A stretch of DNA of 47,440 nt from Deltaproteobacteria bacterium (GTDB lineage: Bacteria > Desulfobacterota > Desulfuromonadia > Geobacterales > Pseudopelobacteraceae), in the NCBI GenBank assembly GCA_021781535.1, contig JAJXWO010000031.1, positions 1 to 47,440 of the forward strand, given 5' to 3'. Under the pieces are notes generated by a model. The model ran no database searches, was not told where the DNA came from, and was given only the letters and a program-made list of their open reading frames with translations. Shown here in pieces: positions 2,713 to 20,999 of this stretch. Within the stretch, counting starts at the first letter, position 1. Each line of letters opens with the position of its first letter. The translations under genes and the position numbers were made by a program.

Positions 2713-3401
2713 AAACCGATATCATCGAAAAAATAAAAAAGCTGCTGGCCCTGGCCAATTCAAGCAACGAACACGAGGCTGCCCTGGCTGCCGGCCATGC
2801 CCAACGATTACTGGCGGAACACAACCTCGCCATGGCCGATATCGAGGCATCCCACAAGCCGAATAAGGCCGACCGGGTTGAAACAGCAGTGGCAAAGACA
2901 CTGCCGAAATGGCTGCGGCTCCTGAGTGCCGGAGTCAGCACGGCATTCGACTGCCAGGCCATCCACCACCCCGCCACCGGCAGAATGACGTTCATCGGCG
3001 TGGGAGCTGACGTCCAGATCGCCGCCTACACCTTCAGCTATCTGGAGAGAACCGTGCGGAAGCTGTGCAGCACCTACATGAAGCAGAATGTCAGCAGTGC
3101 CATCCCCAATCGCCACCGCGAACTAATGCGGCAATCCTACTATCTCGGTGCGGTATCCATCATCACCACCCGCCTGAGAGAGCAGAAGGTGCAGACACCG
3201 GTAACCACCGGCGCACTGGTACCGGTCAAGGAGGGCTTGATCCGGCAGGCCATGAACGAGATCGGCCCCATCAGGACCATGCACAGCCGCAGGAGCTACA
3301 TCAACGCCGATGCCTATACAAGCGGTCAGGCAGACGGAGGACGGGTCGGCATCCACCACGGGATCACCGGCAGCACGTCACCACGCCGCCTCGTTCGTTG
3401 A
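2709..3401 (+). CDS. DUF2786 domain protein
   Basis: Protein of 230 residues. The first 40 residues match the DUF2786 pattern: a short helical segment with KIKKLLALA followed by EHEAALAAGHAQRLLAEHNL. The remainder resembles the longer form of the family seen in phages and chromosomes (conserved W, then repeated R and Y positions), with no recognisable catalytic motif. It overlaps the exonuclease gene by ATGA, so the pair forms an operon, which suggests a nucleic-acid-related role. That role is an inference; the family has no established function that I know of. The last 20 residues are basic and low in complexity. Confidence 0.8.
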   Translation: MKTDIIEKIKKLLALANSSNEHEAALAAGHAQRLLAEHNLAMADIEASHKPNKADRVETAVAKTLPKWLRLLSAGVSTAFDCQAIHHPATGRMTFIGVGADVQIAAYTFSYLERTVRKLCSTYMKQNVSSAIPNRHRELMRQSYYLGAVSIITTRLREQKVQTPVTTGALVPVKEGLIRQAMNEIGPIRTMHSRRSYINADAYTSGQADGGRVGIHHGITGSTSPRRLVR

Positions 3402-20203: not shown

Positions 20204-20383
20204 TCAGGGTTCCGGTTTAATCTGCTTTTCACTCTCTACTTTTGAATCTGTTTTTTTAGTACCTCGGTCCCCGAGGTCACAAGTATCGGACATTCAGGTA
20301 CGCACCCCAAGTGCGGGAAAAATGTATTTTTGCAACACAAACCAGACGACAACTATTGCGAACATTATCAGTATATCTTTCAT
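20204..20383 (-). CDS. predicted small membrane selenoprotein (in-frame TGA)
   Basis: ORF of 59 codons with one internal TGA at codon 30 (20296-20294). The first 29 residues are a single membrane helix (ILIMFAIVVVWFVL, then QKYIFPALGVRT). If TGA is read as selenocysteine, the protein continues U-M-S-D-T-C (a UxxxxC redox-like pair) and a charged tail ending KQIKPEP before a second TGA. Support: AGAGGTG correctly spaced before the ATG, a promoter at 20442-20415, and a hairpin beginning 16 nt after the TGA with G at the first loop positions, as in bacterial SECIS elements. Without recoding it would be only a 29-residue peptide. Everything beyond the TGA is inference; selenocysteine genes are not in the window. 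Confidence 0.55.
20261..20277 (-). promoter_or_regulatory. candidate bacterial SECIS hairpin
   Basis: On the minus strand ACCTCGG and CCGAGGT form a perfect 7-bp stem with loop GGA. It starts 16 nt after the TGA and its loop 23 nt after, inside the 16-37 nt window used for bacterial SECIS, and the loop starts with G. It is not followed by a T run on either strand, so it is not an intrinsic terminator. Confidence 0.5.
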
Positions 20384-20414
20384 TGATTCACCTCTTTGAT
20401 GTGGTATGGCAACA

Positions 20415-20816: not shown

Positions 20817-20999
20817 ATGCCAATCTACGAATATCAATGCACAAAATGTGGCAGCAACTTTGAAAAGCTCCAGAAATCCGGTGTTGTCAGCAAGCTGGAG
20901 TGCCCGACATGCGGTTCTGTGGAAGTAGAAAAGAAGTTTTCTACCTTCTCATCGGCAGGAAGTTCATCATCGACAGCCGGATGCTTCAGTGGTGGTTGA
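20817..20999 (+). CDS. FmdB-family zinc-ribbon protein
   Basis: Sixty residues with the FmdB/CxxC_CXXC_SSSS pattern: MPIYEYQCTKCG at the start, a second pair CPTCG (about residues 30-34), then KKFSTFSS and a serine/glycine-rich tail. The two CxxC pairs would bind one zinc. The family was named for a formamidase regulator, but most members have no known function. GAGAGG precedes the ATG. The tail ends GCFSGG before TGA AGA GCA TAG; normal termination at the TGA is assumed. Confidence 0.9.
   Translation: MPIYEYQCTKCGSNFEKLQKSGVVSKLECPTCGSVEVEKKFSTFSSAGSSSSTAGCFSGG

Follow-up and report, generated by a model that had tools for sequence, protein, structure and literature searches.

On the minus strand of the window (by which we mean the whole stretch of 47,440 nucleotides analysed here, from a deltaproteobacterial genome), positions 20204-20383 hold a candidate selenoprotein gene of 59 codons, the thirtieth of which is an internal TGA, followed by a stop codon. 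A Shine-Dalgarno-like GAGGTGA was read directly at 20388-20394 (minus strand), 4 nt 5' of the ATG, in keeping with the ribosome binding site of the original prediction. Translation from position 20383, with TGA as U, gives MKDILIMFAIVVVWFVLQKYIFPALGVRT-U-MSDTCDLGDRGTKKTDSKVESEKQIKPEP and then a stop. Codons 1-29 (20297-20383, minus strand) encode a predicted hydrophobic membrane helix and a P-x-x-G-h-x-T motif, the last residues of this N-terminal half being IFPALGVRT. The in-frame TGA at 20294-20296 (minus strand), the predicted selenocysteine codon for residue 30, is conserved in relatives and has Cys in its place in other homologues. The charged C-terminal half begins MSDTC, and its Cys codon at U+5 (20279-20281, minus strand) makes up a UxxxxC motif; this residue is Cys in 103/103 sequences, encoded by TGC in 59 and by TGT in 44. 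A SECIS-type hairpin, for which relatives provide covariation, lies at 20261-20277 (minus strand), with a stem formed by 20271-20277 and 20261-20267 and a GGA loop at 20268-20270. The frame is closed by a TGA at 20204-20206 (minus strand), for which relatives use TAA, TAG or TGA; in the 106 loci described below the frame ends in TAA in 51, TGA in 33 and TAG in 21, with one not read.

The arrangement of 29 helix codons, a TGA, 29 further codons, a Cys at +5 and a charged tail had been proposed before our analysis, and translation confirmed all of it. The proposal gave the feature without a strand, and we can add that the gene sits on the minus strand. It had also described a good promoter, which we did not recover: a consensus scan upstream of the gene found none, the TTGACA and TATAAT present there being 12 nt apart and not 16-18 nt. 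Its expectation that gene callers would stop at the TGA was borne out by an entry in the protein set (P0087, 29 amino acids) that corresponds exactly to codons 1-29 of the window's gene.

The AlphaFold model consists of a single helix over residues 2-24 and a low-confidence tail (mean pLDDT 68.6). Lys and Arg together average 0.48 in the first six residues versus 5.75 in the 32 residues from the helix end onward, and because this positive charge sits after the helix, the C-terminal tail is predicted to be cytoplasmic.

Distribution of the TGA codon and its cysteine counterparts

To find relatives we searched 117 genomes, comprising the window's own genome and its relatives, using the 59-residue protein with Cys at the TGA codon as query and reading through stops. 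Matches with E ≤ 1 were returned by 102 genomes and were strong (E ≤ 1.2e-8) in 97 of the 117, the own genome included, the other five being weak (E of 0.07 or more). A family member was present in 106 of the 110 loci taken (L009-L114, some of them second copies), and all 106 had TGA at this codon. L115-L118, with weak matches (E 0.0136-0.487), proved to be unrelated frames and were dropped from the 110 loci. We aligned 79 of the 106 loci with the TGA column left blank (alignment A2), leaving out L113, L114, L082 and near-duplicates; M1, W14, P23, G26, T29, the TGA and C35 are invariant in it. In a more diverse alignment of 84 loci chosen for diversity (A3), P23, G26 and the TGA column are invariant, and W14, L22, T29 and C35 are conserved at ≥90%.

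The A2 profile was then run against 395 genomes, an even sample of the phylum, which we take to be Desulfobacterota; 180 genomes matched with E ≤ 0.1 and 166 with E ≤ 1e-3. Eighty matching records were titled mostly Geobacter, Geobacteraceae, Desulfuromonadaceae and Deltaproteobacteria, and records titled Acidobacteria and KSB1 matched as well. Carriers of the gene include the Geobacter-group isolates Citrifermentans bremense R1 (L179) and Geotalea toluenoxydans (L177). In the phylum of one Acidobacteria-titled genome, 58/247 genomes matched with E ≤ 1e-3. TGA lay inside the match in 53 of the 59 matches listed for this second set and was absent from the matched stretch in six. Among these six, L300 carries Cys, and in the remaining five a TGA sits just past the match or one codon earlier. 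From the wider searches 81 loci (L207-L287) and 32 loci (L288-L319) were fetched, representing part of all matches. Homologues that continue beyond the TGA, as the original prediction anticipated, are thus found both in relatives and across the phylum, and the arrangement is not a product of chance.

Re-reading of 232 distinct sequences with one profile (E ≤ 1e-4) gave TGA at the column in 229, a TGA displaced by one codon in two (L280, L304) and Cys in one (L300). Since these segments had been cut at TAA and TAG, we recounted the codon after the N-terminal half without this bias and obtained TGA in 220, Cys in one and Gly in one (L280, where the TGA is one codon later). This count also returned one TAA, which was a chance match to an unrelated frame of L242, so that among the fetched loci no family member had TAA or TAG at the TGA column. 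A Cys exactly at +5 was present in 125/125 sequences from L009-L206, 67/80 from L207-L287 and 19/27 from L288-L319, and the numbers with no Cys anywhere from +4 to +8 were 0/125, 3/80 and 6/27, respectively.

Several members depart from the common pattern. L113 (about 3001-3135, plus strand) and L114 (about 3007-3140, minus strand), both outside the 232-sequence set, are second copies that have diverged, found in two Geobacter-group genomes; they keep the TGA and the hairpin, but their +1 residue is Arg and +5 is not Cys (TURSD..RDLG.RG), and they could be either a sub-family or decaying copies. In the Acidobacteria set, L301, L302, L303, L305 and L306 keep the Thr-TGA and have lost the MSxxC motif (TUAVP, TUGVP, TUGVR); their TGA may be either a selenocysteine codon or one that has turned into a stop.

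No Cys homologue occurred among the strong matches of the 117- and 395-genome searches, and L300 is the only genomic case of Cys at the column among the fetched loci. A first reading that no Cys homologue exists was overturned by a protein profile search. A protein search with the single sequence had yielded just P0002, in which Trp takes the place of the TGA. A profile of 84 diverse members matched 193 proteins with E ≤ 0.1, and 957 proteins matched a profile built from ten Cys forms (consensus GIPTCMSGAC) with E ≤ 1e-3; in each case the best 120 were listed. Among the 230 proteins retrieved, 120 have Cys exactly at the TGA column, 106 end one residue before it and four have Trp. Every one of the 120 Cys-column proteins also has the second Cys at +5 (CxxxxC). 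The positive test put forward in the original prediction, homologues with Cys at this position, thus came out in its favor. The Sec forms and these CxxxxC homologues constitute a classic Cys/Sec pair. According to the available text of PMC12013277, Cys homologues now seem to exist for every known selenoprotein, a statement that fits the UxxxxC family too.

The 106 short proteins (within P0014-P0121) are mostly of 29 residues and are often named 'hypothetical protein'. To judge by their sequences they are apparently family members whose calls were truncated, the TGA after the truncated form having been read in DNA for one of the 106, the window's own P0087; ending as they do before the TGA column, they illustrate how the gene escapes annotation. 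The same 106 of 230 proteins would be expected if the TGA were an ordinary stop, in which case the product would be a 29-residue membrane peptide and the hairpin a conserved RNA element, either a terminator or a regulator. However, TGA is found at the site or one codon from it in 231/232 distinct sequences, with no TAA or TAG, while the final stop varies, and relatives that have a Cys codon there followed by the same CxxxxC continuation speak strongly against a plain stop.

Hairpin, coding selection and selenocysteine machinery

The minimum-energy fold of the region after the TGA has a 6-bp core (CCUCGG/CCGAGG) and a GGA loop, and a seventh, A-U pair is possible between 20277 and 20261. Counting that pair, the stem starts 16 nt from the TGA; the loop starts at 23 nt and has a G in its first two positions. 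The bacterial SECIS rule, as given in the available part of PMC13188914, places the loop 16-37 nt from the UGA and a G within the first two loop positions. The hairpin (its seventh pair being optional), the GGA loop and the fit to this rule therefore stand as originally predicted, but the 16 nt quoted there is the distance to the stem, that to the loop being 23 nt.

As a single sequence the fold is unremarkable (-14.5 kcal/mol, z of -1.48, 17/200 shuffles as good), and the weight of the hairpin comes from covariation in relatives. In all 106 loci the minimum free energy stays at or below the -7.5 asked of a bacterial SECIS hairpin, the values for nt 4-45 having a median of -11.9 and a weakest of -7.9. 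Across the 104 distinct sequences of the 106, the 7-bp stem is paired in 93.4% of cells. Changes on both sides affect six of the seven pairs and amount to 109 cells versus 34.0 in column shuffles (0/500 as high), and there are 14 further pair types versus 11.1 in shuffles (2/500 as high). These column shuffles ignore the relatedness of the sequences; controls with slid columns keep it, and when the partner was slid by one to three columns hairpin pairing fell to 30-56%. The outermost pair (columns 20/36) is unpaired in 21/101 sequences and the innermost (26/30) in 14/104. RNAalifold, unaided, recovered the outer five pairs, every one of which shows compensatory changes. In L300, the one genomic Cys form, a hairpin of -8.1 kcal/mol lies elsewhere, beginning at the codon itself; this is a single case.

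Selection on the reading frame was evaluated from 402 non-independent pairs of 103 sequences (the 106 minus L113, L114 and L082). The dN/dS was 0.153 before the TGA versus 0.099 in U+1 to U+5, which lie outside the hairpin, and U+1 to U+5 are under purifying selection. In the next six codons, which hold the hairpin, synonymous divergence was 0.265 versus 0.62, with a dN/dS of 0.41; low synonymous divergence is expected there because the RNA is used twice. The further tail is looser (pN 0.32, pS 0.74, the latter near saturation), codons past U+6 having been compared without gaps, so that a few sequences with small deletions add noise. Free drift of the downstream frame, named in advance as evidence against a selenoprotein, is therefore not what we see in U+1 to U+5 (dN/dS of 0.10), although the far tail does vary more loosely.

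These results complete the comparison with an ordinary stop. That the hairpin is GC-rich would suit a terminator or other RNA element, but a consensus scan found no terminator-like site at the gene, and purifying selection continues past the TGA. We consider the chance that the TGA simply ends a 29-residue peptide to be negligible.

The genome that contains the window (94.93% complete, 8.87% contamination) has selA, selB, selC and selD, all four of the genes whose presence had been proposed as a check. The genes for tRNA-Sec and SelB adjoin on contig C35, selA is about 3 kb off on the same contig and selD is on C84. Two tRNA-Sec matches scored over the cut-off, at C35:89836-89929 (78.3 bits) and C66:892-985 (69.5 bits), and the second may be either a real copy or contamination. 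In the phylum sample tRNA-Sec was found in 344/395 genomes. The 166 carriers of the family comprise 151 with tRNA-Sec and 15 others, all of which have SelB over the cut-off (some as partial matches). Thirty-six non-carriers had no tRNA-Sec; among 11 of these that were examined, SelB was over the cut-off in seven and not in four. The machinery is thus a necessary condition that is present in the carriers, and it is not a strong discriminator because 344/395 genomes have tRNA-Sec.

Readthrough of the TGA as another amino acid such as Trp, with no involvement of selenium, has in its favor the four database proteins with Trp at the column, which are known as proteins only and may derive from gene calls under a code reading TGA as Trp. 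Against it, the replacement in relatives is Cys (120 proteins), tRNA-Sec or SelB is present in 166/166 phylum carriers, and the hairpin agrees in loop distance and loop G with the SECIS rule in the available part of PMC13188914. We regard such readthrough as very improbable, and rejected both it and the plain stop with an RNA element on the grounds given for each.

Taken at the level of sequence, the locus is almost certainly a selenoprotein gene. Three findings had been named beforehand as counting against this interpretation (no homologue continuing past the TGA, no selenocysteine genes in the genome, a freely drifting downstream frame); each was looked for and none held, and the Cys homologues add to its support.

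Relation to known selenoproteins

SELENOK and SELENOS are eukaryotic single-pass membrane proteins with Sec in a flexible tail. By prediction, our protein would share with them a single-pass design and a Sec placed in a flexible tail (the model has the helix at 2-24 and the low-confidence tail); it differs from them in having its Sec mid-protein (30 of 59) and a Cys at +5. For SelS, a selenosulphide with a Cys has been proposed (PMC3628699, available part). Neither SELENOK nor SELENOS is represented among the 15 Pfam families with a match (E ≤ 1) to at least one of the 79 members. Among bacterial proteins, the Cys-containing small membrane proteins of Myxococcales, Planctomycetes and Deltaproteobacteria, unnamed or called 'hypothetical protein', share similar length, the helix, the P-x-x-G-h-x-T motif and CxxxxC; they are homologous by profile to the selenoprotein family and have Cys in place of Sec. 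The YgaP-like membrane protein (PF11127) is also a small membrane protein and occurs as a neighbour, but does not appear among the family's own Pfam matches.

When the 79 members were compared with NCBIfam (June 2026), no match was over the cut-off (best E 0.021). Pfam likewise had no fitting model for them: the best matches, E 0.00061 for two members and E 0.0029 for 51 members (PF04602), were to unrelated families and were taken for chance matches of a membrane helix. Ten Cys forms that were scanned also had no NCBIfam or Pfam model over the cut-off.

A 2026 inventory lists 119 bacterial selenoprotein families (PMC13188914, Table 1). The Cys/Sec-pair selenoproteins in the available part of that paper are like the present family in their in-frame TGA, Cys homologues, hairpin loop at 16-37 nt and loop G. 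The UxxxxC motif is absent from the motifs given in Table 1, whose entries with no stated motif cannot be set apart in that way; the nearest spacings in the table are those of TsoB (UxxxxU) and TsoA (LULAxC), versus UxxxxC here. Deep-Sep reported nine new families, three of them hypothetical proteins (PMC12013277, available part); these are set apart from ours by their names, and the three hypothetical ones by sequence through the NCBIfam scan alone. The families of Haft and Tolstoy 2025 were covered through the same Table 1 and the NCBIfam scan. No such protein is described in the available portions of the bacterial selenoprotein literature that we consulted (PMC12013277, PMC13188914, PMC1914089, PMC1242214, PMC1794560).

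The protein family is thus new as far as these searches reach, and the mechanism of Sec insertion is already known. An entire selenoprotein family has probably escaped notice, because many relatives share the TGA and the hairpin and others have Cys. We lean slightly towards the view that it is among the most widespread undescribed bacterial selenoprotein families: a core mini-selenoprotein of Desulfobacterota and of many Acidobacteriota, acting as a membrane-tethered selenol switch whose design parallels that of SELENOK and SELENOS and which has a broad superfamily of Cys proteins behind it.

Searches for selenoproteins rely largely on Cys proteins that are already annotated and on ORFs of greater length. 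A membrane protein of 50-60 codons, the first half of which is called as a 29-amino-acid ORF, escapes such searches. If our assignment is true, about 42% of the sampled phylum genomes (166/395) have one more selenoprotein, raising the question of what role a selenol has at the inner-membrane surface in anaerobic, metal- and sulphur-cycling bacteria.

Gene neighbourhoods and possible function

Very probably, the gene encodes a 59-residue selenoprotein made up of a predicted membrane helix and a flexible Sec/Cys tail. The hairpin probably helps the TGA to be decoded as selenocysteine, and the product may be a redox protein. SelB carrying Sec-tRNA would bind the hairpin, whose loop begins 23 nt after the UGA, and selenocysteine would be inserted. 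The helix would anchor the protein in the inner membrane with its C-terminus predicted to be cytoplasmic, Sec30 and Cys35 would alternate between a selenol-plus-thiol state and a selenenylsulfide, and the protein might act at the surface of the membrane on a partner or substrate, either as a membrane-tethered reductase or as a redox relay. We judge the membrane-tethered Sec/Cys redox role itself to be as probable as its converse. Such a Sec-Cys bridge cannot be universal, since some members, L113 and L114 included, have no Cys at +4 to +8.

Neighbourhoods were analysed in 160 loci by simple ORF calling, leaving out of the neighbour sets L278 and L280, in which the TGA does not directly follow Thr or Ser. 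A co-directional neighbour within 120 nt was present upstream in 78 and downstream in 64. Upstream, operon-like neighbours included C_GCAxxG_C_C redox proteins (10/78) and, directly before the gene, regulators of the ArsR type (4/78) and MerR type (3/78); downstream they included YgaP-like membrane proteins (PF11127, 8/64), ECF sigma factors (6/64) and cytochrome c7 genes (3/64). One Geobacter-group set, scanned in L138, comprises, in this order, an RND pump, C_GCAxxG_C_C, the selenoprotein gene, a YgaP-like gene and a metallo-beta-lactamase-fold protein. In L155 (Deltaproteobacteria) Pfam identified an ECF sigma factor together with a zf-HC2 protein downstream and a 4Fe-4S protein two genes upstream, and L183 (Olavius-associated Delta 1) has by similarity a layout like that of L155. 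Neighbour clustering revealed no constant operon partner, and the neighbour sets are clade-specific. The contexts lean towards redox and stress, naming no partner. The case for a redox role is accordingly made by the Sec/Cys pair together with a weak context, the neighbourhoods being clade-specific with no constant partner.

The same neighbourhoods bear on two other functions that a selenoprotein at this locus could have. Its Sec and Cys might serve as ligands of a metal or metalloid, or the protein might belong to a membrane complex as a small accessory subunit, rather than perform redox catalysis. Some loci do come after an RND efflux pump gene, ArsR-type or MerR-type regulator genes lie directly upstream elsewhere, cytochrome c7 genes follow in three cases, L155 has a gene for a 4Fe-4S protein upstream, and the second Cys is absent from some members, but no metal-handling or respiratory partner is constant across the clade-specific neighbourhoods, and we consider this reading unlikely. 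The tail might alternatively be periplasmic, with disulphide or peroxide chemistry taking place there. In another Geobacter-group clade the gene is followed by convergent genes that are presumably VOC-, CcdA- and TlpA-like, named from sequence alone; the TlpA-like and CcdA-like genes next door would suit a periplasmic tail, but convergent genes form no operon and the K/R-rich tail predicts a C-terminus inside, making this placement distinctly improbable.

In three loci (L155:5122-5998, L183:5122-5995 and L248:3665-4523) the gene is immediately followed by that of an ECF sigma factor and by a small gene of zf-HC2 type, as assigned by Pfam on L155, and the selenoprotein and ECF sigma factor ORFs, as called, overlap by about 40 nt; the three genes together are a possible redox-regulated unit. 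FmdB-type zinc ribbons were also seen among the operon-like neighbours, in 6/78 upstream and 3/64 downstream, and in the window itself an FmdB-type zinc ribbon protein (PF09723) is encoded at 20817-20999 (plus strand), divergent from the selenoprotein gene.
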